Translations under genes and position numbers: made by a program
Shown: one piece after another, positions 22,067-64,000 of the stretch
Numbering within the stretch: position 1 is the stretch's first letter
Layout: each line of letters opens with the position of its first letter
Source: Quercus robur
Taxonomy: Eukaryota; Streptophyta; Magnoliopsida; Fagales; Fagaceae
DNA: 64,000 nt
Assembly: GCF_932294415.1 (NCBI RefSeq)
Contig: NC_065536.1
Coordinates: 34,716,354 to 34,780,353 of the forward strand
Reading direction: 5' to 3'
Notes under the pieces: generated by a model
Databases searched by the model: none
What the model saw: only the letters and a program-made list of their open reading frames with translations
Told to the model about the DNA's origin: nothing

Positions 22067-22810
22067 TGATATATAAGTATAGTTTGAGATGGAAGGCACT
22101 CCATTATTTTCAAATCTTGATTATTAGTTGTACCACTTATGTTGTGGACCACCATGTTTCTATTTTTTAGTACGCTGGTTCTGACTTTGATTGAAGATCC
22201 GAAATTTTAGTTCTAGGTATTAGCTCCGGTAGGAATATTTTGGATCAAGTTCAATCATATTCTAGAGATTTACTAAGTACATTGTATGCTCAATCTGTGG
22301 GAGTACCGAATATCAGGATCATAGTTTTCATATAAATGTCCTATGCTATGCTGAGCGTTATTGGTAGCATGTGCATGTTAACTACAGGGCAAGTTGATTA
22401 CATTATTGAGTGGTTCGAGTTGGTCAAGAAACTTATCTGAATGGCCATGATACATTGGTGAAAATTCTTTGACAAATATATCAATTTTTTTCTTTTTCAA
22501 ATTGCATATATATATATATATATATATATATCAATGTTGTATTAATAAGATATTTCCTAATCGTTATTGTATAATTGAGTGTGTTTTTCTTAAACGTCCA
22601 ACAGGATGAATGAGAAACGAAAATTGTTATTGATGGCGCTATTGGTAGTAACATGATTCCTTGGAAGATTGCTAATATTATTTAACATTTTTTTTTTTGA
22701 AAAAATTACGGTAACTATGGCAACTTTGGCATATTTATTAAGCTAAATTTCAAATTACACCTCTAAAATTTGGAAATGTTTGGATTTTACACTTTAAAAT
22801 TTTAGAATTT
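22067..22810. other. Gene-free interval
   Basis: AT-rich DNA with an (AT)n microsatellite at about 22506-22532. No supported gene or mobile element is visible until the LTR fragment. Confidence 0.5.
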
Positions 22811-23036
22811 GCAATAAATGCGTAACGCTTGCCCGGATCGTCATAGACACGGAGTAACGATCTTGTGTTATTTTCGGCTCATCAGGGTGTATCCTGGACT
22901 ACCTTGACAACACTAGCTCTCTTATCCCCAAATGTCCAAACCCTGAATCCCATGGCAATTACAGACCTATTAGCTTCTGCAACACATTGTATAAGATAGT
23001 GTCGAAGATCATCGTGGCTCATATTAGATGGTTTCT
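22811..23036 (+). mobile_element. LTR-end + TSD + LINE junction fragment
   Basis: 22811-22884 is the last 74 bp of the LTR of element A (GCAATAAATGCGTAACGC through GGCTCATCA). The next five bases GGGTG equal the target-site copy of element A. From 22890, LINE reverse-transcriptase sequence follows in one open frame (ILDYLDNTSSLIPKCPNPE, NYRPISFCNTLYKIVSKII). By eye it differs from the right LTR of A at about 5 of 74 positions and from the left LTR at about 8. The same junction exists at 45317/45318, but there the LINE sequence beyond TATCCTGG is deleted. Confidence 0.88.
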
Positions 23037-26657: not shown

Positions 26658-27039
26658 TGAAATGCCTCCCAAGCTGTTAAAACTAATGTAGAATGTACAA
26701 ATACAATTAGCAGATAGGTTATCGGGGTTCTATTCTAAATAGAATCCCATCTAACATGTTCCCTTTTTCTTTATTTAAATGAAATTGGGTAATTTTTTTA
26801 GTTGTTTAAGTTCAGCCCTTTGTTGAAATCTACTATGATCTGTAGTGTTGTTGTAGATAGTAATTGTTCTATTATTGCAATTGAGATCATTCTTAATTAA
26901 AATCAAAAAATTTATTCAACTCTTCCTAAATGCTTTTTATTCTTAAGTAATATTGTACACCAATATTGTTAAGCATCTACTACCAATCCAGTTTAGTACA
27001 CAATCGGGTAAGTAAACAAAAACAAAATGAGCAAAATTT

Positions 27040-27400
27040 TAGGTTTCGATGGAATTTTGATCGTTTTTTAGGTTCTAGGGGTATTTTGGTCATTTTTGGG
27101 TTTTAGAGGTATTTTGTTCATTTTTTAGGTTTAGGGGGGTACTTTGGTTTTTTTTAAGGTTTCAAGGGTATTTCGGTCATTTGATGGGTTTAGGGAGTAT
27201 TTTGGTCATTTTAATGTTTTAGAGGTATTTTGGTCATTTTTTAGATTTAGGGGGTATTTTGGTCATTTTAAGATTTCGGGGGGTATTTATTTCATTTTTA
27301 GGTTTAGGAGGTATTTTAGTAATTTTGGAGGTTTTATGGGTATTTTGGTCTTTTTAGTGGTTTTGGGGTACTTTAGAGTTTGGTAATTTGTAGAAATGAT
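27040..27400 (+). repeat. Minisatellite, ~30-bp units GGTATTTTGGTCATTTTTAG
   Basis: About eleven units of GGTATTTTGGTCATTTTTAGGTTTAGGG type with substitutions and small indels. Some units read as an open frame rich in Phe/Gly/Arg, an artefact of the repeat. It lies about 380 bp past the stop of the exopolygalacturonase gene, with an inverted partner at 23925-24085. Confidence 0.85.
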
Positions 27401-35667: not shown

Positions 35668-36133
35668 TGATGATGCAAACAATCACCAAGTTGAGGACCT
35701 TGTCTCACTAGATGGATGATCCCGTGATGGGTCGTGTCTCCAGTCCAAGCCTGTAAGAAAGCTTGAGAAAGAAGTGTGATACACCAGTGTAGTGTTTGCC
35801 AAAAACACTCTGATGCTTAAGTTAGAAAGGAAGAGAAATGGTTCAGAGAGCAAAAATGACTTGGAATGGTTTTTAGGTCAGTATTTGTGTGCCCCTTTGG
35901 ATTATATTGTTCTCTTCTTTTATAGTTGTCTTCCTGTCTTTATGGATAATGAATGCTGGCATTTATGGGCAACAACTATTGTGTCATGAATGGGAGCTCT
36001 TGAAGTACACAGCTATATTGTTACCATTGCTCTTCCATTACTTTTTATCATCAATGCACGCAATAAATGCGTAACACTTGCCCGGATCATCATAGACACA
36101 GAGTGTCGATCCCGTGTTATTTTCGGCTCATAA
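35668..36133 (-). repeat. 3' LTR of element A
   Basis: This is the left LTR in window coordinates and the 3' LTR in element orientation. It starts TGATGATGCAAAC and ends GGCTCATAA, where the partner LTR has CTCATCA. Just beyond it (36134-36145), the minus strand carries a purine-rich AGGGGAGCAGC, the probable polypurine tract. Confidence 0.9.
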
Positions 36134-36670
36134 GCTGCTCCCCTGTTCGTGTTCTCATCTTTAAGATGAGGCAAGAACATATTCATCCGTTGCTTCATGT
36201 TCCATGTTTGGCGCATTTTTTGCGAAATGATGTCTTGTTTGCTGCACGCCACGTGTATGATCTGGATGTCCTCGTCGTGCCAATTTTCCTGCGCACGATC
36301 CCCACTCATTTAGTGTCTTTTCCCTCCTTTTCTTTTCATTCTTTGTTTAGTTTTCTTTTCTTTCCTTGGCGTTTCATCTACTTTGGAGTTCTCTTGAACT
36401 TTCCTCGTTTCCTCTCTATTTTTCTGGTAAGTTTTTCGTATTCCTCGTTTCCTCTGCTTTTTTTCTTTCTTGGTAGATTATTCTTTAGTATGGTCAGATT
36501 GCCCCTCCATTTCTTTTTTCTTTGCTCGATTTTGTGGCCTGCTTGGGATCATAGGTAGAAAGCGTCCTAGGGTTGGGTTGTTCATAAGAAGGAACTGGCC
36601 ATATAGGTTTGTTTTGCTTTTTCTTTTTCCCTTAGTTCATCGTTCCGTAGGGATTGCTTAATCTTTGCTA

Positions 36671-38577
36671 ATGTCAGGGGAAGGTGAGGTTAGGTCTAGC
36701 GAGCTTGAGACAGGTTTATCTTCGTCTGAGGATCATGGTATCCTTGAGGTCACTTCTCCTTCTACTCCTCATAAAGCTTGGGGTATATGTTGTTCCCTTA
36801 GGGAGAAGGACGAGAAAAGGATTAGGGATAGGTTTCAATTTCCCTCTTCTATTAAAATTAGGATCCCTAATGGTGATGACAGGACTTGTCACTTCTATGC
36901 TGATGAAGTATGCTTTTATGAGGCTGACTTCATCAGTGGGCTTCGTTTTCCCATTTATCCCTTCATCAGGGAGCTTTTCTTTCTTTTTCGACTTGCCCCG
37001 ACCCAGTTAGAGCCAAACTTGTGGAGGATAGTGGTAGGTTGCATGGTGGTGTGGATGTCTGCTTAAGGTTATTGGGAGTTTAAACCGTGGGGTAATAGCT
37101 CAAGGTTAATTCTTGACTCCCCCTCTTCTCTTCGGAATTGGAAAACCAATTTCTTCTTTGTCTCTGGTGAAGGTTGGGAGTTCACTTCGGGTGAGAGCCT
37201 AAACGATGCCCCCAAGCTACTTCGTAGTTGGGGAACTCTTGTGTCTGGTGCGTCTTTTTATTTATTTTTACTTGCAAGTATTTAATTTTTCATATGGGTG
37301 TGATGTTGATGTTGATATCTTTACCTTTTCACAGCTTCTACTCGCCCTTATCTATAGAAGAGGTACCATGCTCGCGTTGAGAAAGTTAGAGAGTACCTTA
37401 GGATGGTTAAAGACTTTGACGAGCTTATCTCTCCCTAGTCTCTTTTCCTCCATTTCCTTGGTCCTAAGCCCTCCTAACACGTTCGGAAGAACATTGACAT
37501 TGTTAAGAAGAGTGAGTTTGTCTTATCATCTTTTTCACAATTGAGTCTGATGTGCTTGTACTTACATCATTCCCTTTTTTTCTTTTTTTTTCTTTTTTTT
37601 TTTAGGGATGGCGACCAAGTTCAATAAAGCCAAGCTGGCCAAGATTCAAGAGAGAAAGGCCAAAGGAGGTTTGACGGGCAGCCTTTTGACGAGGAAATGT
37701 CAACAAGATAATTAGCCACCTAAGGATGATCCTATGGTGACTTCGCTTGTTGCAAAGGTTGTCCCTCAGTGTCCATCTTCGCCTACCTCCTTTGTGGAGA
37801 TAATCATTGACGATGCTCCCAAGCTCAAGTGGAAGGATAAGGTGTCTAAAGGCTCTTTCTGGGACGATGCGGGGGTTGCGGCGTTGAAAGCCCAAGAGGC
37901 AATATCAGTTGATGACTTTACACCTCTGGGGGCAAGGTCGTCTCATAAGCTGATGTCTTCTCATGTACAAAAAGTTATGTAGGTATGAACTACAAGTGAA
38001 AGCTTTTTTCTTCTTTCTTTGTGTTCTGCCATCTCATGCATCTTTCTTCTTTTTGCAGGTGTTGGGTGAATCCTTGTATATTTCGGGGAAATACTTAGAC
38101 TATGAGGAGAAGTACGTGAAGGCCACGTCCAAGGTGGAATCTCTTTCTGCTGAGAATGAATCACTCAGAGGTCAGATTACTACTCTTGTTAACAAAGCTC
38201 AGAAGGACAAAGATCGTTTGATGGTTTTAGAGAAGAGCATTGACATTGAGAAGGCCTTCTTAAAGCTGAAAGACAAGCAAATTTACAAGGCCCTTTCAAA
38301 AGTTAAGAAGGTAGGGATAGAGGCGGTGGAGATGTTCAAGGATTTCGACGAGTACTTAGACAAGTTGTGCGACTACTATGTGGAGGGTTTTGAGCTCTTT
38401 AGAAAGTACTTGGCCAAACGTCATCCAGAATTGGAATTTGCCAACCCTAATATGGAAGCTATTGAAAAGGAGGTGTCATCTGATCGTCGGTTTGCGAAGG
38501 GGGTTGGAGATGGTGGTGAGATGGATACTGTTGATGAGGCTGTATGCGTTGACCTGTCATCTTCTAGTTTGCCTTAG
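36671..38577 (+). CDS. Antisense spliced ORF (aORF) of element A, Transposase_28-like with coiled coil
   Basis: On the strand opposite gag-pol. Exons by GT-AG and homology: 36671-37247, 37335-37511, 37606-37982, 38059-38577. Exon 1 (MSGEGEVRSS...) holds YADEVCFYEADFISGLRFPI and, later, NFFFVSGEGWEF, the pattern of the plant 'putative gypsy-type transposon' family (Transposase_28). Exon 2 has RVEKVREYLRMVKDFDELIS. Exon 4 is open throughout, with a predicted coiled coil (YVKATSKVESLSAENESLRG) and a C-terminal YVEGFELFRKYLAKRHPELE motif. In-frame stops at 37064-37066, several in exon 2 and at the end of exon 3 (TAG at 37980-37982) show decay. Function unknown. Element B carries a counterpart with matching exons, so the gene belongs to the element. 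Confidence 0.72.
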
Positions 38578-38814
38578 AAGGATCCGTTCTTTTTTTTTTT
38601 TTTTTTTGTAAGATAAAAACACTGTTTATCTTTAGGGCTCGTTGTTTGAGCATGTTTGCTTGTTTTTTTTTTTTTTTTTTTTTTTTTTTCAACGATCTTT
38701 TGGATAATTTTCATTTTGGGCTTGCCTGTTTTGAGTTTCTTTCTCCTTGAACATATTTGGTGATCGTGGCCATGTGCCAAACAATTTCCTAACAAAGTTG
38801 TACATATTATTAGG

Positions 38815-39560
38815 TCATGTGTAAATGACAAACTTGTTTTGTATTAACAACTTTATTTTGAATCATGTATGAATGAAGAATTTGTACTAATAACTTTGTT
38901 GGATGACGATGTCATTATACGTAAATAGTTTTATTTAGTCATGTATGAGTGACAATCTTATAATGTTTTAATAGCATTATTCTAAGTCATGTATGAATGA
39001 CAATTTTGTTATGTATAAATAACATTATTCTAAGTCATGTATGAATGACGATTTTGTTATGTATCCATAACATTATTTAAAATCATATGTGAGTGAGGAT
39101 CTTGTTATGTATTAATAACTTTATTTTTAGTCATGTACGAATGAAGATCTTGTTATGTATTAATAACTTTATGTTAAGTCATGTATGAATGGCGATCTTG
39201 TTATGTATTAATAACATGTGTAAATGATGATTTTGTTATGTATTAATAACATTATTCAAAGTCATATGTGAATGATGATCTTGTTATGTATTAATAACTT
39301 TAATTTAAGTCATTATGTATTAATAACATTATTCAAAGTCATTATGTATTAATAACTTTACTTTAAGTCATGTATGAATGATGATTTCGTTATGTATTAA
39401 TAACTTTAATTTAAGTCATGTATGAATGATGATTTCGTTATGTATTAATAACTTTAATTTAAGTCATGTATGAATGACGATTTTGTTATGTATTAATAAC
39501 ATTATTTTAAGTCATGTATGAATGAAGATTTTGTTATGTATTAATAAATTTATTTCATGC
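38815..39560 (+). repeat. ~47-bp minisatellite inside element A
   Basis: About fifteen units read AAGTCATGTATGAATGAYGA followed by TTTTGTTATGTATTAATAAC, with point changes and a few truncated units. The array lies between the end of the antisense gene and the 3' end of pol, in the element's hypervariable 3' region. Tat-lineage elements are known to build such tandem arrays there. Confidence 0.9.
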
Positions 39561-39799
39561 ATGAGTGGTGTATGTTAATATGTATTGATACTTTTCAACA
39601 TCATGTATTAATGAAGATTTGGCCAATAGTTCGTAATGTAAGAATCTGGTACATATAATTCTTGAATAGTACGTCTATGTATATTTTATTGATAGAGAGA
39701 CAAAACATTCCTTCGTCTATGTAAAACAGATAACAATAAAAGGAAGAAAAATAAAAGTAAGTACTATAAACATTTTGGAATACTTGGGGACAGTTCTTA

Positions 39800-42700
39800 C
39801 TAGTAGTATCCCTTTAAGCGTTCTATGTTCCATGGACAAGGTAGTTCCTGGCCGTCCAAGGTCTTCAGGTAGTGTGATCCTTCTTTGGAGTGGCAAATGA
39901 CTTGTTAGGGTCATTCCCATGTTGGACCTAGCTTCCCTTGGGACGAGTCCTTTGTTGCCTGTGAGACCTTCTTAAGGACGAGATCACCTATGTTGAATCT
40001 TCTCACCTTCACCTTCTTGTTGTAATATCTGGCCATTGCTCCCATGTATTTTTCCATCCGTTTCGAAGTTTCATCTCTCACCTCGTCGATCAAATCCAAA
40101 TTATTGTTGAGTTCTTGGTGGTTCCTTTGCTATGCTTTGACCCGGATGTTCGTCAATCCTATCTCCACTAGTATGACAACTTCAGTTCCAAATGTCAGTC
40201 TAAATGGTGTTTCTCCTGTTGGCACTCTTGTGGTCGTCCTGTATGCCTATTGAATGTTAGGCATCTCTTCTAGCCATGCCCCCTCAAGCCGAGTTTTGAT
40301 AATTTTGAGTAGACTTTTGTTTGTCACTTTTGTTTGACCATTAGCATGAGGGTGTCTTGGAGAAGAGTAGTGGTTTTTGATGCCTAAATCTTGGAAAAAT
40401 TTTCAAAACTTGGGGTTGTCGAATTGCTTCCCATTGTCTGATATGATTACGTTGGAATGCTGAACCTACAAACTACGTTCTTCCATACAAAGCTGGTAAT
40501 CTTGGCTTCTGTGATCGTCGCTATTGGCTCGGCTTCGACCCACTTCATGAAGTAGTCGATTGCGACAATGAGGAACTTGTACTGCTTCCTTCCTATAGGA
40601 AGAGGCCCCATTATGTTGATCCCCCATTGGGTAAAAGGCCACAAAACAGTTATCGGCGTCATTGGCTCACTTGGTCTCATTTGGATGTTCGTGAAGCGTT
40701 GGCACTGGTTACATGCTTTGATGAGGTCATATGCATCCTTCTGTAGCGTTGACCAGTAATATCTTGCTCTAAGTATTTTTCCCGCCAAAGATCTCGCTCC
40801 TGCGTGGTTGCCACAGACCCTTTCGTGTATCTCTCAAAGTATGTAGTTGGCTTCTTCCTTGTTAACACAACGGAGATAAGGGAGAGAGTATCCTCGCCTG
40901 TAAAGGGCGTCATCAATAAGAACGAAATGAGCAGCTTTGATCTGTACCTTTCGTGCTTCCTTCCTGTCTTCTGGGAGTTGACCTTCTTTCAAGTAATGAA
41001 TGATGAGACTCATCCATTCATTCTATTCTTGTATTTTCATCACCTGCTCTCCCTCTGTGCTAGGCTACCCCCTTGTTTCCAAGCACAACTTTGGAGATAT
41101 GTCGTGTTTGTTTGACGAGGCTAGACGTGCTAAGAAATCAGCTTCAATATTCTTTGCACGAGGGATTTGCTAGAACTCGACATTGTCAAAGTGTTGTAGG
41201 AGTTCTTTGAAGATCTTCAGATACTTTTGCATTCTTTCCTCCTTCGCTTCGTAATCTCCTTTTATCTGGCCAACTACAAGCTGAGAATCGGCTTGGATGA
41301 TGAGGGTTTTGGCTTCAAGGACTCTTGCAAGACTCAATCCTATTAGAAGTGCTTCATACTCGGCTTCATTGTTGGTTGTTGGAAACTGCAATTTGACCAC
41401 GTACTTCAAAATTTCTCCTTCAGGTGATATGAGGACCACACTTGCTCTTCCGACCTTCTTGGTGACGGACCCATCTGTTTGGACTGTCCATGTCTCCTTT
41501 TAGGGCTCTTTTTCTTCTTAAGGATAAGAGAATTTCGCAATAAAATTAGCAAGGACCTGGGCTTTGATTGCTACCCGAGGTTGATATTCTATGTCGAACT
41601 AGCCAAGCTCTATAGCCCATTGGACGAGGCACCCTACTGCGTCTATCTTGTTCATCATCTTTCTTATCGATTGGTCTGTCATGACAACGATGGGATGTAC
41701 CTGAAAGTGGTGGTGCAGTTTTCTAGATGCAACTACTAGGGAGAAAGTGATCTTTTCTAACCTTAGGTAATTTGCTTCAGCTCCCTGAAATGCTTGGCTA
41801 GTGTAGTATACCGGCCTCTGCACATTTTCCTCTTCTCTGATCAGTGCCGAGCTTACTACTGTGTTGGATACTGCCAAATAGAGTTGCAACTTTTCTCTTG
41901 TTACTGAAGGGCTTGACAATGGTAGTTGCGTTAGGTACTTGTTTAACTTCGTTAAGGCTTCCTCACATTTGTTTGTCCCTTGAAAGGTCTTCTTTAAGAC
42001 CTTGAACAAGGGTAGGCACTTGTCTGTCGCTCGAGAGACGAATTTGTTTAACACCGCAACTTTTCCTGTTAAGCTCTGTACTTCCTTGACTGTTTTAGGG
42101 AACTTTACCTCCAATATTGCTTTTATCTTATCTAGATTAGCCTCTATGCCCTGTTAAGATACTATGAATCCCAAGAATTTCCCTGATGAGATAGCAAAGA
42201 CACTTTAAAGGGTTTGTTTCATTTTGTACTCACGTAGTGTGTTGAAGGTTTCCTTCAGGTCATCCAAGTGGTCTGCTTTGTCATTGCTCTTTACCAACAT
42301 ATCATCTATGTACATTTCCACATTTCTTCCTATCTGATGAGAGAACATGCAGTTCACCAACCTCTAGTACGTGGCCCCTACGTTCTTCAATCTGAAAGGC
42401 ATCACCTTGTAGCAGCATAATCCTTGGCTAGTGATGAATGAGGTCTTTTCTTGATCTTCCTCGTCCATCATGATCTAATTGTAGCTGGAGAAGGCGTCCA
42501 TTAAGCTTTATAGCTTATGCCCAACAGTTGAATCCACTAGTTGGTCGATCCTGGGTAAGGGGAAGCTGTCCTACAGGCATGCCTTATTGAGATTTGTGAA
42601 GTCGACACACATTCTCCATTTGCCGTTGTTCTTATTTACCATCACTACATTGGTTAGCCACTTAGGGTAGAACACTTCCTTTATGAAACCTGCCTCCAGG

Positions 42701-44830
42701 AGTTTCTCAACCTCCTTTGCTATTGCCTTATTGCGTTCAGGCACAAATATTCTTCGTCTCTGCTACACTGGTCTACACTCTAGATTAACATTGAAACGAT
42801 GTTGGATAACTCCTTTGTCGATTCCTAGTATACCCTCGTGCTTTCAAGTGAAAACATCCTGGTTCTCTCTCAAGAAGTTTGTTATCTTCATCTTTTCTAA
42901 GCTGAAAGTGTTGATCCTATCTTCAAGACTTTGGACAGATCTCCAAGGACGACTTCAACCTCTTGTGGAACTTCTATTGGCTCAGGGACTGGTTCAGGTT
43001 CGTCTATCATCCATGTTTGGTTTTCCCCTGATGTTAGGGCAGCTTGATAGTATTCTCTTGCAAGGGCTTGATCTCCCTTGATTTCCCCTATGCCATGGGC
43101 TGTAGGGAATTTAACCTTTAGATAATAGGTTGACGTTGCCGCTTTCAACTCGTTGAGCGTTGGTCGTCCAAGGATGACATTGTATGTCGATGGGCAATCC
43201 ACCACTAGGAAATCAATCTTATGGTTAGCTTAACAATGCCTTTGGGAATAACCCTGTCCCCGGTGGAACTTACCAATGGGGAAGTGAACGATCATAACCT
43301 TTCCTTGTTCAGCTTCATTTGTTGGAAGGTTGGCAGATAGATGGTGTTTGCTGAGCTTCCATTGTCTATCAATACCTGATGCATGTTGAACTCTTCCATC
43401 TTGAGCATTATAACTAGCGGATCGTCATGGGGCTGTCTAACACCACGAGCGTCCTTCTCGGAAAAGACAATGTTTGGTTCACTGTATCTAGACATTTTTC
43501 AAGGTGGGAACCGTAAGTGTACGCTGTTCACTTCTCGGGCATGCGCCTTTTTCAGTGATTTGGAGGATCCTCCTACTACCAATCTTCCTGAGATTATCCT
43601 TATTTCTCCTATGGGGGTTTTATTGCCCCCTATCTCTGGCTCCTTTTCCTTCTCGTCCCTCTGTTGTCTTCTGTACGACTCCATTCTTCGTACAAACTTC
43701 TGCAATTTTCCTTGACGAATTAAAGTTTCTACTTGGTCCTTCAGATGTTTGCATTTGTCAATGTGATGCCCGTGGTCTTGGTGGAATTTTCCATACTTGC
43801 TTTTGTCTCTTACTTTTGTTGGAGTGTGAATAGGTTTAGGTCATTGTGACTGGTTCCTTCGTCTCTTTTTCTTTTAGTCGTCACTCCTTTGGCCATTACT
43901 GCATCCTCTACATTCATATATTTCTGGGCCTTGTGAAGTAATTCTGCCACTGTTTTTGGCGGACACTTGGGGATTAAGAAGAAGAAATCTCTTAGTAGCA
44001 ATTCTACTTGGAAGGTCGTTAGGACTACTGGGTCTTCCACTTCGTCCACCTGCAGCAACTCTTTGTTGAAGCGCGTCACGTATTGTCTCAATGATTCTTC
44101 CTTTGCCTGGCGTATGTTGAGAAGATGCCCAGTTGGCTTCTTGTGTCGTTGTCTGCCAATGAAATGACGAACAAAACCTTTGCTAAGTTGATCGAAGTTG
44201 GCAATGGTGCCAGAAGGCAGTTTGCCAAACTACACCCTGGCCGTGCCCTTCAGCGTTGTTGGGAAGACCCTGCACATTACTTTGTCTGGGGTCATCTGTA
44301 AGAGCATCAAAGTCTTGAACGACTCAATGTGATCCAAGGGATCACTTAAGCCGTCAAAGGATTCCGATTGGGGAAGATGAAACTTCGTTAGGAGTGGACA
44401 GTTCAACACTTATGTTGTGAATGGCAAATCCGTCCTTTAGATCATTCCATCCAAGTTCTCCACGGCTCTGTCTTTTACCACATTCTTGAGTTCGTCCATC
44501 TCCCTCATCATGTTACGAAGCTCGTTCTCCATTCTGGATGAGTTTTTTTTTCTGGCGTTCTCGTCCTTCTGTTTGCCTGGCTATCCGATCCTTCCTCATT
44601 ATGGTTTCCTTCAATCCTCTGACGCTCTTCTTCATTCTAGTTCTCTAGGATCCGCTGTCGTTCCTCATTCTAGGATTCAACGACTCTCCTCAATTCTTCA
44701 TTCTGACGAGTCACTTCTTCCAAGGTGGCTGTCAAAGCTTGGATTTGCTGTGCAACTTGTTCATAATCTATCTCATGATACGAGGTTCTCTTTTGTCACT
44801 TAGGGAAGATGGCTTTGAATGATCAATATT
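39800..44830 (-). pseudogene. gag-pol of element A, broken
   Basis: In element order: gag (VTRFNKELLQVDEVEDPVVL at 44091-43810, preceded by gag N-terminal scraps), aspartic protease with [13 protein letters not shown] near 43340, reverse transcriptase with YIDD at 42301-42312, first RNase H at about 41950-41600 (YLAVSNTVVSSALIREE), second RNase H at about 41500-41150 (TTNNEAEYEALLIGLSLARV, QADSQLVVGQIKGDYEAKEE), integrase zinc finger and core about 40900-40300 (DLIKACNQCQRF, WGINIMGPLP), and the integrase C-terminus RRFNIGDLVLKKV, ending at 39800. Numerous stops and frameshifts fall between domains, so no functional polyprotein is possible. The second, archaeal-like RNase H before integrase is diagnostic of the Tat lineage. 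Confidence 0.87.
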
Positions 44831-44848
44831 CCCCACAGACGGCGCCAA
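44831..44848 (-). other. Primer-binding site of element A
   Basis: Three bases inside the 5' LTR, the minus strand reads TGGCGCCGTCTGTGGGG, a primer-binding site type common in plant gypsy elements. It fixes the direction of the element. Confidence 0.85.
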
Positions 44849-44850
44849 AC

Positions 44851-45317
44851 TGATGATGCAAAAAATCACCAAGTTGAGGACCTCATCTCATTGGATGGAT
44901 GATCCTGTGATGGGTCGTGTCTTCGGTCCAAGCCTGTAAGAAAGCTTGAGAAAGAAGTGTGATACAATGATGTGGTGTTTGCCAAAAACACTCTGATGCA
45001 TAAGTCAGAAAGGAAGAGAAATGGTTCAAAGAGCAAAAATGACTTGGAATGGTTTTTGGGTCAGTATTTGTGTGTACCTTTGGATTATGTTGTCCCCTTC
45101 TTTTATAGTTGTCTTCCCATCTTTATGAATAATGAATTCTAGCATTTATGGGCAATGACTATTTTGTCATGAATGGGAGCTCTTGAAGTACATAGCTATC
45201 TTGTTACCGTTGCTCTGTCCATTACTTTTTATCATCGATGCACGCAATAAATGCGTAACGCTTGCCCAGATCATCATAGACATGGAGTAACGATCCCGTG
45301 TTATTTTCGGCTCATCA
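44851..45317 (-). repeat. 5' LTR of element A
   Basis: Starts TGATGATGCA and ends GGCTCATCA in window orientation, 467 bp. On the minus strand it carries TATAAAA at 45101-45107, the likely promoter. The last 74 bp also occur at 22811-22884. Confidence 0.9.
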
Positions 45318-54057: not shown

Positions 54058-55285
54058 CTAAAGAGAAAAGAGAGTCACTGGTTAAATGCTTATATTGATT
54101 ATAGACTTGAAATGATACAAGTACCCTGAATTATCGGGGTTTATTTACACGATCTTCACCCAAACTATTATACCCAAAAAAATAAAACGAAAATATTCCA
54201 TTTAAAGTAGTATTTTTGTTTTATTTTGACATATTGTAAGAGGTTTAGTTTAGTTTAAATAGGTTTATTCAGCCAAAAAAAAAAAAAAAAAGAGTTTTAT
54301 GAATTAAAGGTAACGCAAAATAAGAACCCGTAAAATTCTCTTGTTACAATGCTTTTACCGATTTTTACTCTGTATGTATGTTTGTTTGTTATAAGAAATA
54401 AGAGAGAGAGGGGAATATGCATGTGTGTGTTGTGGCTTTGTGGTGTTAAATTCTGTTGTTTTAGTTTCATTTGGGTGACAATGAATTATGAATGAAGGAG
54501 TCACACTCATAAAATGCAAATAGGGAGAGGCCAAAGGAATAATACCTCTAATTTGCTGATGGTTAGGATTTATGGGAATATTAAAAGAGAGAGAGAGAGA
54601 GAGAGAGAATAGGTTGGGTGGGACAGCTTTGTTGGCAATTTTGTTGCGACGGAGAATGGATATACATAAATATGATCTGAGTTGATAGTGGCTGAAGCGG
54701 TGACCCACTTTCGCTCTCTTCTCGAAAACTACTTCTTTGTCCGATTACGAGTTTGAGTTTTTGCGACGCTTCGCCACAATCCTAAACGTGGTCCTTAGTC
54801 CTTACTCGTTTACTCTCTCTACTAGTTGCTACTAGTTGTGATAGGAAAACAGGAATTGTCACAATTATAAATAAGGATCTAGTGAAAATCTGGTGATATT
54901 TTATTGTGTTTTTAGTTTAGTTTAAAAAGAAAAAGAAAACTAAAATAAAAATAGCACCTTTTAAGTTTGATTGAATTCATTGCATAATTTTTCCTTTACT
55001 CGTGTTGTTATTTAGAGGATTGAAATAAATTTAAGATTTAAATAGTGTAATTTACGTTTTAGCTATAAAAAAATATTCATTACAACTCACCAAAACCACA
55101 AGTCTTATAATTTTTATATTAAAAAGAAGGTATACTTTAGCATTATTTATTGGTAAGTAATTTTAATTCATAGTGGAGAATATAGTATTTGAAGTGGGTT
55201 AATTGCAAAATTTATCCTAAATTATAGGTATTTGTATTTTGTATTCCTAAATTCTGAAAGCTTGTATCATCGCCTCAATAGAAAT
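54058..55285. other. Interval upstream of the PsbQ-like gene
   Basis: Contains a (GA)n tract at 54586-54608 and a GC-richer, CG-containing part at 54700-54800 that could be the promoter and first exon of the minus-strand gene. No transit-peptide frame starting with ATG was found. The block at 55200-55285 (ATCCTAAATTATAGG) looks like flanking repeat DNA. Confidence 0.4.
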
Positions 55286-55939
55286 TGATAGGGGAGCAGA
55301 AAATTAGTCTAACTCTGGTTCGTCCAAATGTGTCGTCCAGATCCAATTAAGCAAGTTCAACCTGGAATCACCCCAGAAGAAGTAAAAGTGTTTATGGACA
55401 ATAATACTACTCTTGATCAGTGAAGTCTCCCATGGACGATAAAGTCGTCCATGATGAAGGTCGTCCATGGACGACCTTCAGATGTCCATGGACGACCAAA
55501 CAGTCCTCCACCAGACGGACGACTACGCAGCACTTAGAACTTTTGACTCTCTGTAGCGGTTACTAAACCCGCAACTATCTCGACGAATCCATCAAATAAG
55601 TTAACTTCCGTTAATGGTTACAATTTTAGTAGCCGTTGAGGAAGTTAACTCCGGACTCGTTGGCTTCCACAAATCCTGGGGAGGTTATTGGACAAATAAC
55701 CGTCCCCAGGGTCCCTATATAAAGGATCGGTCTGAACCCGACAAAGGTAAGAATTTCTCTGAGACAGTACTCCCAAATACTTGGAACTCCCTTCTCTGCG
55801 AGACTAACTTCTTCATCGGAGAGGGTTTGGTCGGTATTCTCCAGTCTCCTCTTTGACTGTTTGTTTCTTGTAGGCCTTCCACCACTTCAGTAGCCCACCA
55901 AAACCAGATCATCCACCTTACTGATTCGGAGCGATATCA
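55286..55939 (+). repeat. 5' LTR of element B
   Basis: Starts TGATA and ends TATCA, perfect short inverted ends, 654 bp. A TATATAAA box at 55716-55723 is the likely promoter. A cluster of GTCCATGGAC motifs lies at 55425-55500. The start was chosen from the inverted ends and the change from flanking AT-rich DNA; it needs the 3' LTR for proof. Confidence 0.75.
55455..55480. promoter_or_regulatory. Perfect 26-bp palindrome in the LTR of B
   Basis: The centre is GTCGTCCATGGACGAC, extended symmetrically to 26 bp. Two more half-related copies (CCATGGACGATAAAGTCGTCC at 55430-55450, GTCCATGGACGACC at 55484-55497) lie within 50 bp. The position, about 240 bp upstream of the TATA box, suits a dimeric regulator-binding site or an enhancer-like module. 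Confidence 0.6.
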
Positions 55940-55941
55940 GT

Positions 55942-56002: not shown

Positions 56003-59000
56003 ATGGTCAGGACCAGGTCGAGGGCTACGAGCCCAAGCCGTCAAGAAAGCAGAGGCGCTTCAAGTGATCCCCAACGCGACCGCCAATCCGCATCAGTCAT
56101 GCAGACGTCGTCTGTTCAGCATGTGCAATCTATGACGACTGCAATGGCGGAGTTGACTCGCCAAAACCAAGAGTTAAGAATGGAGATCAATTAGAGAAGA
56201 TAGACACGTGAAGAACGTGAAGGACAAACACAAGGTCATGGCGATAGAGAAAATCCTGAGATTGGAAGTCAGTTAAGAGGCACCACTTCACGGACGGTAC
56301 CACACTTGAAAGAAGAAATGGACCAAATGAAGAGAGTCATGGAGGAAATGAAAGAGAATATGAAGAGGACGAATCCTATAGAAGATTTGGTCCATAGAAC
56401 CGACTCTTCCTTTACGGCTTCCATCAACGGTCATCCTCTACCATCAAAAATCAAACTGCCTTCCCTGGATTCGTACGACGGAACGCGTGACCCGTTCGAC
56501 CACATTGCTACTTTCAAGACAACTATGCACCTTCAAGGGGTCCTTGATGAAATCATGTGTAGAGCCTTCCTTACCACCCTTAAAGGCCCGGCGCGAGTTT
56601 AGCTCAGCAAAATACCTCCAAGTTCTGTAGGTTCTTTCGAAGAGTTAAGCAAACTGTTTGTTAACAACTTCATCGGGGGACAAAGACACAAGCGTTCTTC
56701 GTCTAGCTTGCTGACCATAGAGCAAGGGGAGAACGAAAGTCTGCGGTCATTCATCACTCGCATCAACAGAGAAGCCCTTAGTGTGGACGAGGTGGACGAC
56801 AAGCTTCTACTGGCAGCCTTCCACAACGGGATTAATTCTGATTTATTTGTCCACAAGCTATATGAGAAGGAGCCTCAAACTATGGCTGAGCTTGTCCATT
56901 CGGCTCAGAACTTCATGAATGCAGAAGATGCGATCATAGCCAAGAAGAGGAAAAGAGCTAAAAGGATGGAAGCGCATCCAGCACGCCATTCAGAACAAGG
57001 CCCTCGTCCAAAGAAGGGACGGACGGAAGATAAGAAGGAACGAGATAGCAAGAAGACGGGTCCTTTAGGAAGAAGCCAGAACTATACGCCCCTGAATGCT
57101 CCACTCGATCAAGTGCTCATGTAAATCAAAGACGACCCTTCCCTAAAATAGCCAGAGAAGATGAAGGGAGATCCCAATAAGCGCAATAAGAATAAATATT
57201 GTCGCTTCCACAGGGACCATGGGCATGACACGGATGAATATTATGACCTGAAGCAGCAGATTGAGAATCTTATTAGACAAGGAAAGCTGAGGCACTTCGT
57301 TGGAAGGGATCATAGAGATGAGAAGTTGAAAGGAAAAATGGAGGAATCGTCCCAGCCCCCACTAGGAGAGATAAGGATTATCGTTGGAGGAAACTTGATG
57401 GGGCAATCTTCCAAGTCGAAGAAGACATATCTCAAAGTGGTGCAAAACGTCCAGCTCTCTGGACGATCACCAAGGACGAGATCAAGGGACGAGCCGGCCA
57501 TTTCCTTCACCAACAAAGATGTAGAGAGGATCCATCACCCGCATGACGATGCGATTGTCATTACTCTGCTTATTGCGGATTATACGACCAGGAGAGTGTT
57601 AGTTGACAATGGAAGCTCAACAAACATATTGTACTACCCTGCCTTCCAATAGATGAGGCTTGGGCGGGATCAACTTCGTCCAGTTTGCTCACCACTGATA
57701 GGGTTCGGAGGAATGAAGGTATAGCCCGTAGGCACCATTACATTACCAGTAGTGGTAGGGTCATACCCACAGCAGATAACTAGGGAAGTCAATTTCCTTG
57801 TGGTGGACTATTCGTCTTCATACAATGCCATTATTGGAAGACCAACTCTGAACAGTTGGAAGGCGATAATATCTACCTACCATCTATTAGTCAAATTCCC
57901 TACGGAGTACAGGATAGGGCAAGCACAAGGAGATCAGTTGGCAGCTAGAGAATGCTACTTAGCCATGATGGCTCTGGACGAATAGGTGCAGACAATGAGC
58001 ATCGAGGAAAGAAGGGTTATTGCAGAGCCCACAGAGGTATTGGAAGATGTTCTTTTGCAAGAAGATGATCCCGAGAAATTCACCAGAATTGGAACATGTA
58101 TGAAGGAGAAGGCAAGAAAAGACCTCATCCAGTTCCTGAGAAAGAGTATTGACGTTTTTGCATGGAGTCATGACGACATGCCAAGAATCGACCCAAGTGT
58201 GATCACTCATCGATTGAATGTGTACCCCTTTTTTAAGCTTGTTCGTCAGAAGAAGAGGGTATTCGCTCCCGAGCGGGATAAGGCGATCAAGGAAGAGGTT
58301 CAGAAACTGACCACGGCACGGTTCATTAAGGAAGTCTATTACTCGGATTGGTTAGTCAATGTGGTGATGGTGAAGAAAGCAAATGGAAAGTGGAGAATGT
58401 GCGTAAATTTCACTAACTTGAACAAGGCATGTCCCAAGGATAGTTATCCTTTGCCACACATTGATCAATTGGTGGACTCTACGGCTGGCCATCAGTTGCT
58501 GAGCTTCATGGACGCCTTCTCAGGATATAATTAGATCAAGATGGATGAAGCTGATCGGGAAAAAACTTCCTTCATTACCAGCCAAGGCTTGTTTTGCTAC
58601 AAAGTGATGCCCTTCGGTTTGAAGAACGCAGGGGCAACTTATCAAAGGTTGGTAAATCACATGTTTCATCCACAGATAGGACGGAATGTGGAGGTTTATG
58701 TCGACGACATGCTTGTGAAGAGCATAGACGAGGGAAGCCATCTAGACGACCTACAGGAAACCTTTGAAACACTTCGGCGATATAAGATGAAGTTGAACCC
58801 AAGTAAGTGTGCATTCGGAGTATCGTCGGGAAAGTTTCTGGGGTTCATGGTTTCGCAAAGAGGAATCGAGGCGAATCCAGACAAGATCCAAGCTATATTG
58901 GACATGGAGCCACCGAAGAGTATCAAGGAAGTCCAATCCCTCACAAGACGGCTACTTTGAACAGATTTGTTTCGAAAGCCACAGACAAATGTTTACCTTT

Positions 59001-61224
59001 CTTCAAAGTCCTCAGGAAGGCATTTGAATGGACAGACGAATGTCAAAGGGCCTTCCAAGATCTGAAGGACTATCTCACTACTGCCCCATTATTAAGTCCG
59101 TCCGTGCAAGGAGAAGAACTGTACCTATACTTAGCGGTGTCCCCACACGTCGTAAATTCAGCTTTAATCAGAGAAGAAGGGAAAGTACAAAAACCTGTGT
59201 ACTACACTAGCCAAGCACTTAGAGGAGCAGAGGGAAGGTATCCGCTTATAGAGAAATTGGCTTTTGCACTGACAACAGCTTCTAGGAAGTTAAGACATTA
59301 CTTCCAAGTTCATGTCATCAATGTCATGACGGACCATCCGCTTAAGAAGGCAATGAACAAGCTAGAAGTCGCAGGACGGCTGATTCAATGGGCGGTGGAA
59401 CTTAGTGAATTCGACATTCGGTACCAACCAAGAAATGCGATAAAGGCTCAAGCCCTAGCAGATTTCATCACAGAGTTCACTCTGAGTCACGAAGATCTTG
59501 GGGAAGGAGAGTACAATAACAAATGGGTCGTCCATGTAGATGGATCATCTACATTGTATGCTGGAGGAATAGGAGTTGTTTTGCAGTCGCCAGAAGGAGA
59601 CAAATTAAAGTATAAGGCCCGTTTGCAATACCAGACTACTAACAATGAAGTGGAGTATGAAGTCCTTTTAAAGGGGTTGGAGTTGGCCAAGTCTGTAGAA
59701 GCAGACTCAATACTTGTCTTGGGAGACTCTCAATTGGTCATAGGACAAGTAAATGGGACATGCGAAACGAAGGAAGATAGAATGAAGAAATATCTAAGGA
59801 AAGTAGTACACCTTGTAAAGAAATTCAAAAAAGCTGATTTTGTTCAAATCCCGAGGGAAGAGAATATGGAAGCAGATATTCTGGCGAAGGAAGTATCTAC
59901 GAATGAAGCGTTGGACGAGTTGGATGAGGTACACTACATGCCAAGTATAGACCTTCCAAAAATGCTGCAGATAGAGGGTGACGGAAATTGGATGACCTCA
60001 ATAGTGTCATACTTGAAGGACGGAAGGCTTCTAGAAGAGAAGGACGAAGCTAGGAAGCTCAAGGTCAAATCAGCCAGGTATGTACTTATGGACGAAGTGT
60101 TATACAAAAGAGGTTTTTCTCAGCCTCTCTTAAGATGTTTGGCTCCGGACGAAGCAAACTACATGTTAAGGGAGGTTCACGAAGGAGCATGCGGAAACCA
60201 TTCGGGAGCCAGATCACTCGTCCATAAAGTCATCCGTAGCGGATTCTATTGGCCAACCATCCAAGCTGATGCTAAGGCATATGTCAAAGTATGTGATCAA
60301 TGTCAATGCTTCAGCAACATTCCCAGACAGCCAGCAGAATATCTCACACCAATGATGGCCCCTTGGCCTTTCGCGCAATGGGGACTGGACATTTTGGGGC
60401 CCTTTCCGACTGGAACTCGGCAAATGAAGTTTCTGGTGGTAGGAATAAATTACTTCACAAAATGGGTGGAAGTCAAACCCTTAGCAAAAATTACGCAGCA
60501 GAATGTCAAGAACTTCGTCTGGAAGAACATTGTATGTAGATTCGGGGTACCTAGAGTACTAGTGTCTGACAATGGACGACAGTTTGACAACACACCTTTC
60601 AAGGAATTTTGTGAACAGCTTGGAATGAAGAACCATTACTCCTCACCCTCCCACCCACAGGCCAATGGCCAGGCAGAAGTAGCGAACCGATCCTTGTTAA
60701 AGATCATCAAGACTCGGTTTGAAGGGGCAAAGGGAGTATGGCCGGATGAGTTACCAGGTGTTTTATGGGCTTATAGAACGACAGTGAGAACTCCAACAGA
60801 GGAAACTCCTTTTAAACTAGCCTATGGAAGTGAGGCAGTTATACCGGCAGAAGTACACATGACGAGCCACAGGGTGAAGGAGTATCAAGCTGAAGAAAAC
60901 GAAGAACAGCTCCGTCTTAACCTTGACCTTATGGACGAAGTCAGGATGGATGTAGAACAGAGGACAGCGAGGTACAAAAATCTCATGGCAAGGCAATATG
61001 ACGCCATGGTGAAGCCTAGGCGTTTCAACATTGGGGATCTCATCCTAAAGAGGGTTACCTTGGCAACAAGAAACCCGGCCTACGGGAAACTTGGGCCAAA
61101 TTGGGAAGGACCTTATAGGGTTATCAACTACAAGAGGCAAGGATCCTATTATTTGGAAGCTTTGGATGGGCGGAGGCTGGAGCACCCTTGGAATGTTGAG
61201 CACCTAAGGAAATACCATCAATAA
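56003..61224 (+). pseudogene. gag-pol of element B: one frame with nine stops, then one frameshift
   Basis: A single frame from the ATG at 56003 (MVRTRSRATSPSRQ) runs to about 58945, interrupted only by in-frame stops at 56192, 56201, 56600, 57122, 57149, 57650, 57722, 57983 and 58532 (eight TAG, one TAA). A small deletion at about 58948-58952 shifts the frame, after which it is open to 61224. Domains: gag with FDHIATFKTTMHLQG; a zinc-type CRFHRDHGHDTDEYYDLK at 57198 with a Cys lost; protease VLVDNGSSTNILY; RT with YVDD at 58697-58708; first RNase H about 59110-59440; second, archaeal-like RNase H about 59524-59905 (VDGSSTLYAGGIG, GDSQLVIGQ); integrase with an H2C2 finger and Asp (60388), Asp (60568), Glu (60676), spacing D35E. 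All catalytic motifs survive, yet the reading frame is broken. Confidence 0.9.
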
Positions 61225-62381: not shown

Positions 62382-64000
62382 TCATTTGGGCAAACTAGCC
62401 TTGGGGTCGTCTTGAGTGACTTCAGTATTAGCGTCGTCCATTATGTTGACGTCCTCGAAACTCGTCTGTAACAAGAAACTCTCTGTAGCAAGGGGAAGCT
62501 TGAAGGAGTTGAAGTCCAAATCAGGATATGCCTTCTTAGCATCAGCACGGAAGTCTTTATAGCCAGCTGCATAATGACTGTCTAGACGATTCTTATACTC
62601 GTCAGACTTCTTAAAGGCCGCAATAGCTTCTTCATGTGCCTTCTCCAAGGACGAGGTAAGCTCTGAAACTTGTCCTTCAAGATGGACGATGCGGGTATCC
62701 TTCTCTAAGTTGTCAGCCTTAAGCTCTTCCACCTTGTTCTTCAGCTTCGTCTCACTTCCTTATAGACGATTAAAATCCTCGGTCAACCTAAGGACCTTCC
62801 CCTTCTTTAGCAGAACTTCATTGTTCAACTCCTTGGCTTTATCATTAGCCGTCTTAGCCTCTACAGCGAGCTCCTTGGCTTGGCAGGTTGCTGTATAAAA
62901 TTTTGACATAGCCTGCATATGGACAAAAGGGAGTTAGACATCCTACTCAAATTAAAATTAAAAAAAAAAAAAAAATTTCACAAGGACGAGGGAAAGACTT
63001 ACTTTAAAAAGGTCATGGATGCCAGAATGTTCAAACTCCTTCACTGACATGTTATATCACTCATTCACTTCACGATTAGTGACGATTCCTTTGAACGTCC
63101 TCCACGCATAACCCTCGTCCAGAACTAGATTGGAAGGACGATCAGAGGTCTCCGACAAGCTGGGCTTGCGAGAAACTTTGGGTGGAGGGGGAGGATCGCT
63201 CTGGACGGGATGGACTGTTTGGACAGGCTCCACATCCACCAAAGGTTCGTCCAAGTTCACTGTTGGAGTACAAACTTGGGGACCTTGGGAAGGGAAGTCT
63301 TAGCAGACTTTTGCTTCTTAGGACCTCGTCGGCTTGGGAGGTCGTCCAAGTCTACAGTACTGGATATTGATTTAGACTTCCTTTTTCCATCCTGGACAGA
63401 AGCCACTTGGACAGACGGAGGTGCGACAACATCCTCGTCCCCACTAGTCACAACCTTCTCCTTGTTTTCCCTCATTGTAGTTATTCCTGCAACGAGGAAA
63501 GCTAATTAAAAAAAAAAAAAAAAAAAGAGAAAGGTAAGTGAAATGAAGTGGACGATACTTACTTCGACGAGTAGTCTCCTCGTGACTAAGGTTTTCTGCA
63601 GTAGGCACTGGGCCAAGTCCCCAAGCTGCTAGACGACTGAGAGTAACCAAATCGTGGAAAGTCCTCCCAGGGAAGGCACGAACCACGTCTATCTGGTCCA
63701 GGTAAAATTTGTCCAAGCGTGGACGAGCAATAGCTGCATCAACAAAGAAAAAGAGTTAGACGATTGAAAGATAGGAAAAAAGTAAGGAGAAAGGAAATAA
63801 AATGGAAAGAAAACATACCCTCAGGACGAAGACGACCTAGAGGGCTGGTAAAAGGTGGGAAGGGGGGACTACCCACATCAGTTGGGTCCCCAGTCCAATT
63901 TCCATAAATAATAAAAAATTCTTTTTTCCAAAGCCGGTCAGACGAGTTACGACCCTTAATTAAACTGTAATAAGAGCCCCTGGACGAGAACTGGTAAAAA
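62382..64000 (-). CDS. Antisense spliced ORF (aORF) of element B, partial at window edge
   Basis: Minus-strand exons inferred from GT-AG sites and likeness to the aORF of element A: from past 64000 to 63819, then 63733-63563 (57 codons, LDKFYLDQIDVVRAFPGRTF), 63486-63003 and 62912-62382. The first visible exon holds SSDRLWKKEFFIIYGNW, the counterpart of the FFFVSGEGWEF segment in A. The third is Lys/Ser-rich, nuclear-signal-like (GKRKSKSIS, RRGPKKQKS). The last is a coiled coil (EELKADNLEKDTRIVHLEGQ) ending with a YAAGYKDFRADAKKAYPDLD motif that parallels the C-terminus in A. Breaks: a frameshift near 63260, a TGA near 63057 and a TAA near 62760. Family resemblance is to plant Transposase_28-type proteins; function unknown. 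Exon sizes (171 and 531 nt) are close to those in A (177 and 519). Confidence 0.72.

Follow-up and report, generated by a model that had tools for sequence, protein, structure and literature searches.

Judged by comparison of its many copies, an intron-containing gene that lies antisense to gag-pol in two retrotransposons of Quercus robur is, with a probability of about 95%, a genuine accessory gene of Ty3-gypsy elements of the Tat/Retand type, one that is spliced and codes for a protein. The window (the whole stretch of DNA that was analyzed, 64,000 nt of contig NC_065536.1, forward strand positions 34,716,354 to 34,780,353 of assembly GCF_932294415.1) contains one copy of the gene in each of two element families, termed A and B.

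Two Tat-type elements with a gene opposite to gag-pol

Both elements are Tat-type Ty3/gypsy retrotransposons. Element A (35668–45315, minus strand) has an LTR pair that is 91.2% identical, and element B (55283–65610, plus strand, with its right end beyond the window) has one that is 97.4% identical. Their parts were located as follows.

35668–36131, minus strand: 3' LTR of element A (left), 91.2% identical to 44851–45315; the antisense gene begins just inside it
38930–39555 (about 38857–39649), no strand: tandem array between gene A and pol, unit ~48 bp
40447–44229, minus strand: gag-pol remains of element A (Pfam), with gag at 43810–44229, RNase H at 41599–42153 and the integrase zinc-binding domain at 40447–40833
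44851–45315, minus strand: 5' LTR of element A (right), pairing with 35668–36131
55283–55940, plus strand: 5' LTR of element B, 97.4% identical to the 3' LTR at 64953–65610 (outside the window, from locus L027)
56204–61224, plus strand: fragmented gag-pol of element B (gag, a reverse transcriptase fragment, RNase H, an RVT_3-type second RNase H and integrase)

The gag, RNase H and integrase pieces lie on the strands expected for each element, and both A and B have, between pol and the 3' LTR, a gene that is read from the other strand. The RVT_3 domain of element B (second RNase H, residues 245–362) lies between RT_RNaseH and Integrase_H2C2; for element A only pieces were tested. Within the Tat clade, Ogre and Retand elements are marked by an archaeal-type second RNase H, placed after the first RNase H and ahead of integrase (PMC6317226), and element B carries this mark. 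The presence of the antisense TRP28 gene favors Retand over Ogre for both A and B. Tandem arrays near the antisense TRP28 ORF, such as the one in element A, are a common Retand trait (PMC11963269). Outside the two elements, the window contains a tandem repeat with a unit of ~29 bp (27037–27397), and positions 22785–22882 are 76% identical to part of the element A LTR, perhaps as the leftover of another copy.

Gene models of the two families

Gene A is made up of a TRP28 exon, a short exon, a basic linker exon and a coiled-coil exon, separated by GT-AG introns.

36470–37247, plus strand: gene A exon 1, TRP28; start-codon place at 36470
37248–37334, plus strand: gene A intron 1; GT in 32/38 and AG in 30/38 copies
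37335–37511, plus strand: gene A exon 2, 177 nt; three in-frame stops in the window copy; family dN/dS 0.13
37512–37605, plus strand: gene A intron 2; GT in 36/38 and AG in 27/38 copies
37606–37982, plus strand: gene A exon 3, linker; two in-frame stops in the window copy; family dN/dS 0.23
37983–38058, plus strand: gene A intron 3; GT in 35/38 and AG in 32/38 copies
38059–38577, plus strand: gene A exon 4, coiled coil and terminal motif, 519 nt including the stop; open in the window copy; family dN/dS 0.21

The exon lengths were 577 (counted from 36671), 177, 377 and 516 nt, the last becoming 519 nt with the stop. The junctions 37247/37335 and 37982/38059 proposed in the first-pass annotation were exact to the base, as were the exon sizes it had matched between A and B (177/171 and 519/531 nt), and there is a third intron at 37512–37605, in addition to those at the two junctions it had named. 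Its start at 36671 was wrong; this position is an internal Met, and the A-family start is placed ~200 nt upstream at 36470. The column of 36470 reads ATG in 29 of the 38 aligned A-family copies (TTG in the window copy), and the N-terminal peptide that follows has a related stretch in most A copies and recurs in other families. Exon 1 of the window copy measures 577 nt versus 643 nt in its relative L029, a gap that is common to most relatives. The window copy of gene A carries 1, 3, 2 and 0 in-frame stops in exons 1 to 4.

Gene B has the same organization on the other strand of the window.

63819–64000, minus strand: gene B exon 1, part within the window; extends to the ATG at 64632 (from L027)
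63734–63818, minus strand: gene B intron 1; GT in 19/21 and AG in 18/21 copies
63563–63733, minus strand: gene B exon 2, 171 nt; family dN/dS 0.32
63487–63562, minus strand: gene B intron 2; GT in 21/21 and AG in 18/21 copies
63003–63486, minus strand: gene B exon 3, linker; length change and stops in the window copy; family dN/dS 0.24
62913–63002, minus strand: gene B intron 3; GT in 21/21 and AG in 17/21 copies
62382–62912, minus strand: gene B exon 4, coiled coil, 531 nt including the stop; one in-frame stop in the window copy; family dN/dS 0.14

Here the exon lengths were 814, 171, 484 and 528 nt (531 nt with the stop), exon 1 running from 64632 to 63819 with the portion past the window end taken from L027. 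In-frame stops in exons 1 to 4 of the window copy numbered 1, 0, 4 (after the length change) and 1. Both window copies are pseudogenes, broken by stops. Intron phases, obtained from the exon lengths of the B-family copy L050 and of six further loci, were 1-1-0.

Splice sites and introns across family copies

Splice sites were compared in an alignment of 38 A-family copies (the window copy and 37 loci; L048, which spans exon 4 only, was left out) and 21 B-family copies. The splice dinucleotides were largely retained in both families, in line with the spliced antisense gene proposed in the first-pass annotation. Departures from GT/AG numbered 48 across both families; 36 of them were single G-to-A changes, the kind by which methylated DNA usually decays. 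As a background, a GT anywhere in copy A's gene was kept in a mean of 48% of A-family copies, with 11% of sites reaching 85%; the corresponding mean in the B family was 85%, so the B splice sites are by themselves weak evidence. The T content was 52% in the introns of both families and 29% (A) or 26% (B) in the exons. Indels with a length that is a multiple of three accounted for 47/124 in exons and 23/103 in introns of the A family, and for 7/19 and 6/26, respectively, in the B family; the excess in exons is only moderate, as expected for copies that have decayed.

The apparent introns could instead be frameshift or decay artefacts within one old ORF, an outcome that the first-pass annotation had itself named as fatal to its gene. 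Such an origin would agree with the decayed state of both window copies and with the finding that 2 of the 12 introns tested in open copies can be read through in frame. However, the breaks fall at the same place and in the same phase across families, with GT-AG ends, and retention of the intron breaks the frame in the other 10 of the 12. Furthermore, an intron was absent in none of the 59 aligned copies, the shortest remaining stretch being 28 nt. A single uninterrupted ORF, as in the published aORF-3R, was not encountered, and four exons were present in every locus modeled. The conserved splice ends, the frame-specific dN/dS described below and the 1-1-0 phases in other loci together rule out the artefact reading, to which we attach almost no credence.

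Selection on the spliced reading

Values of dN/dS were obtained from pooled pairwise comparisons (Nei-Gojobori counting with Jukes-Cantor correction, omitting codons that contained gaps or stops) of 30 of the 38 A copies and 20 of the 21 B copies; eight A copies and one B copy were dropped because of poor alignment. In the predicted frame, dN/dS was 0.19 (A) and 0.24 (B), in a setting where pairs are not independent and A-family synonymous sites are near saturation. The shifted frames yielded 0.83–1.23 for all exons together and 0.72–2.06 for single exons. Each of the four exons was far below 1 in both families (exons 1 to 4: 0.16, 0.13, 0.23 and 0.21 in A; 0.37, 0.32, 0.24 and 0.14 in B), which agrees with the long selection on an exon-conserved antisense gene that had been suggested from the window alone. 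The values near 1 that had been foreseen as the result speaking against such a gene were sought in the predicted frame and not found.

The ratio dropped as divergence grew, from 0.39 to 0.17 in the B family and from 0.26 to 0.17 in the A family, and the slope of dN on dS was 0.10 in both. This pattern is the one predicted for neutral decay of inserted copies on top of a constrained replicating lineage. Among the closest disjoint A pairs (7 of the 38 copies left out), a third-position transversion bias was significant in exons 1 to 4 (p = 6.6e-10, 7.1e-3, 5.5e-8 and 4.0e-8, respectively). Among the closest disjoint B pairs (1 of the 21 copies left out), codon-position bias was hardly visible, and the transversion bias was significant only in exon 3 (p = 0.017; p = 0.55–0.80 in the other exons). 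We also considered a sense-strand ORF as the source of the constraint. In the four copies tested, every sense frame of exons 1 and 4 contains stops, so a sense ORF does not account for the constraint on these two exons; for exons 2 and 3, which are short, some of the four copies have a sense frame that is open. The conclusion that the spliced protein was selected while the elements replicated, with inserted copies decaying, is well supported by these comparisons.

Other TRP28 loci and the relationship of families A and B

A profile search of the genome (785.7 Mb) with PF04195 provided 4149 first-look candidates, and all 150 of those that were scored exceeded the Pfam cut-off. Many of the matches share a score of 45.3 bits and have open frames of ~330–378 codons; equal scores combined with long open frames suggest a recently multiplied element family in the genome. 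Seven further TRP28 loci, picked for diversity and long open frames, were fetched, and the exon order shared by A and B was found in all seven. Six of them were modeled (L071 was left out of the splice model), each with phases 1-1-0 and a 180-nt exon 2. The spliced frame was fully open in four of the six (L070, L072, L073 and L074), which are not independent because L073 and L074 belong to the same family, and an early stop interrupted the spliced reading of L069 and L075. Within the two window families, all four exons were open in 1 of 21 B copies (L050) and in 0 of 38 A copies. In six of the seven further loci, an integrase C-terminus could be recognized by eye downstream of the gene and on the other strand.

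Comparison of the A and B families by hhalign revealed homology of exon 1 (E = 1.8e-18) and of exon 4 (E = 9.3e-10). Of the prepared rows, 45 of 57 were used for exon 1 and 29 of 50, together with the window exon, for exon 4. For the linker exon 3, no direct similarity between A and B was detected in the pair tested (z = -0.2). Exon 3 of A and exon 3 of B each resemble that of L073 (z = 5.6 and 17.8, respectively), and A and B are linked in this exon only by that route.

The predicted protein

Counted from the start codon used, the product is about 640–670 residues long in open-frame copies. TRP28 (PF04195, Pfam cut-off of 26.2 bits) was recognized in exon 1 of window copy A (27.9 bits), L050 of the B family (31.9 bits), L073 (43.1 bits) and L070 (41.9 bits), and it scored only 15.6 bits, below the cut-off, in L043 of the A family. 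DNA binding has been predicted for TRP28 (PMC11963269). The AlphaFold2 model of exon 1 was poor (mean pLDDT of 51.5), and a search with it for the TRP28 fold returned no useful PDB match at E 0.001. Exon 3 contains clusters of lysine and arginine that, read by eye, likely form a nuclear signal. The model of exon 4 (mean pLDDT of 83.7, good local confidence) comprises a 93-residue helix and then two helices. The terminal motif Y-x2-G-[FY]-x2-FR...P-[DE]-L, noticed when the window was first read, was present in exon 4 of both A and B, and its Y-x2-G portion sits in the first of the two helices that follow the long one. HBZ of HTLV-1 is produced from a spliced antisense transcript and is of the bZIP type. 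A HBZ-like bZIP domain was not detected in exon 4, for which bZIP_1 scored 13.9 and 14.4 bits, far below its cut-off of 27.6 bits.

Promoter and leader

In the B family, a TATA box (CTATAAATAG) is located at 64770 in the orientation of the gene, 138 nt before the ATG (64632) and between it and the inner edge of the 3' LTR (64953); it is ~99% conserved in the aligned copies. No such box turned up with this simple search in four other loci, and in the A family the search gave scattered matches only, with no TATA box at a constant place. The A-family leader contains GTAAGT ~45 nt upstream of the start codon (window 36405–36445) in 29 of 38 copies, within surroundings that have diverged. This sequence looks like a splice donor, and no acceptor was found at a plausible distance from it. 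Loci L072, L073 and L074 have a donor-like GGAGGTA[CT]GT roughly 150–200 nt upstream of the start codon, a possible sign of an additional intron in the 5' untranslated region of these families.

Proposed function and rival explanations

These findings suggest that the elements make an extra, probably regulatory, protein. The gene would have a promoter of its own, near the inner edge of the 3' LTR, that drives antisense transcription, and the transcript would lose three spliceosomal introns by splicing. These introns would persist through replication because the RNA packaged as the genome represents the other strand, where their sequences do not act as introns. In the predicted product, TRP28 is joined to a linker that is basic and probably directs the protein to the nucleus, and then to a long coiled coil whose terminal helices are conserved. 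We consider the odds about even that it is a nuclear coiled-coil regulator acting on the element's own DNA or transcription; such a protein would enter the nucleus, act on the element and work like a retroviral antisense accessory factor. The DNA binding predicted for TRP28 (PMC11963269) and the nuclear localization and own promoter reported for maize Grande gene23 (PMC7264820) speak for this role; the poor TRP28 model, the failure to find a B-type TATA box in the A family and in four other loci, and the faint codon-position bias of the closest B pairs speak against it.

A protein with the same anatomy and under the same selection might alternatively serve the nuclear pre-integration stage, by import of the cDNA complex or by chromatin tethering via the coiled coil. 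Nuclear entry has been suggested for proteins of antisense ORFs (PMC7264820), in keeping with this role, but an antisense promoter uncouples expression from that of gag-pol, an arrangement that suits a component of the particle less well, and we regard this alternative as unlikely. Regulatory antisense RNAs are known in other LTR elements (PMC7264820, PMC12786077), and the antisense RNA might itself act, as dsRNA with the genomic RNA or through transcriptional interference, leaving the ORF as a by-product. The dN/dS values are, however, low in one frame only and in every exon, which shows that the protein was selected and makes a purely RNA-based function improbable; a role of the RNA in addition to the protein is possible. 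An intron-containing gene looks host-like, and one might suppose a recently captured host gene or copies domesticated by the host. Against this supposition, the candidate places number in the thousands and every one that was scored passed, the constraint is weakest in the closest pairs, and nearly all examined copies are decayed, as fits selection on a replicating element. Copies kept intact at fixed places by selection, the sign of domestication, were not seen among those examined. We therefore hold recent host origin to be very improbable, whereas ancient capture from the host is possible.

Relation to known antisense ORFs

The first-pass annotation had stated that extra antisense ORFs are known in some Tat elements. 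Antisense TRP28 ORFs are indeed known, and "some" understated their occurrence: Vicient 2025 (PMC11963269) reported them for 97% of the Retand clusters with recent activity. Those ORFs resemble the gene described here in their place between pol and the 3' LTR, their antisense orientation, their PF04195 match and the tandem arrays nearby; they were described as separate ORFs, whereas we find a four-exon gene with phases 1-1-0 and measured selection. The same study labeled further antisense ORFs Smc, topoisomerase 2, polIII and TolA (PMC11963269). These labels look like matches to the coiled-coil and linker exons, and the published separate TRP28 and Smc-like ORFs are probably exons 1 and 4 of one gene. 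Neumann 2019, in which ORFs of at least 250 codons were required, reported Transposase_28 in 23% of Retand elements (PMC6317226), and the 97% of Vicient 2025 was obtained with shorter ORFs allowed in a study that differs in other ways too (PMC11963269).

Vicient and Casacuberta 2020 review antisense ORFs and call for a search of antisense and spliced transcripts (PMC7264820). The word "intron" is absent from the main texts of PMC11963269, PMC7264820 and PMC4093653, and no description of introns in antisense TRP28 ORFs was found in the literature searched; the subscription literature, which lay largely outside this search, may have one. The antisense TRP28 kind of gene is already known, and its conserved spliced anatomy and protein-level selection were not found in print. 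Gao 2014 described antisense ORF2 proteins of 211–939 aa in 15 bean Ty3-gypsy families (PMC4093653). They too are antisense and occupy the interval from the retrotransposase ORF to the 3' LTR, an SMC (coiled-coil) domain occurs in some of them, and ORF2 of pvRetro13, at 631 aa, is near the size of the spliced product here. In contrast to the present gene, TRP28 is not named for them in the portion of that paper drawn on here. Because ORF2 was predicted with FGENESH and GENSCAN (PMC4093653), joined exons may be implicit in it. Gene23 of maize Grande is reported to be an antisense ORF with its own promoter and nuclear localization (PMC7264820); it is alike in its antisense place in the 3' internal region, and its own promoter and nuclear protein match what is proposed for the present gene.

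We tentatively propose, at slightly less than even odds, that a single ancestral gene, with a promoter of its own and three introns in phases 1-1-0, underlies the various antisense ORFs (TRP28, "Smc" and others) reported from the pol–3' LTR interval of Retand elements throughout the flowering plants, each such ORF being one of its exons. If true, Retand would be a retrotransposon lineage that has conserved a spliced regulatory gene on its antisense strand; reverse transcription, however often repeated, would have left the introns in place, as the genomic RNA does not present them as introns. The gene would be a plant counterpart to HBZ, which is named in PMC11963269, in working only (an antisense, spliced, nuclear, coiled-coil regulator). 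Antisense Retand ORFs have so far been catalogued as single ORFs with function and origin unassigned. If these ORFs are exons, every single ORF falls far short of the real protein in length, and scans that demand a minimum ORF length would miss a gene whose protein is split in this way. The spliced model supplies a defined protein and exact junctions to seek in RNA data, and an intron-bearing gene is hard to explain by capture of a spliced host mRNA. A spliceosomal intron is likewise found in Ogre elements of the Tat clade, there on the sense strand (PMC6317226).
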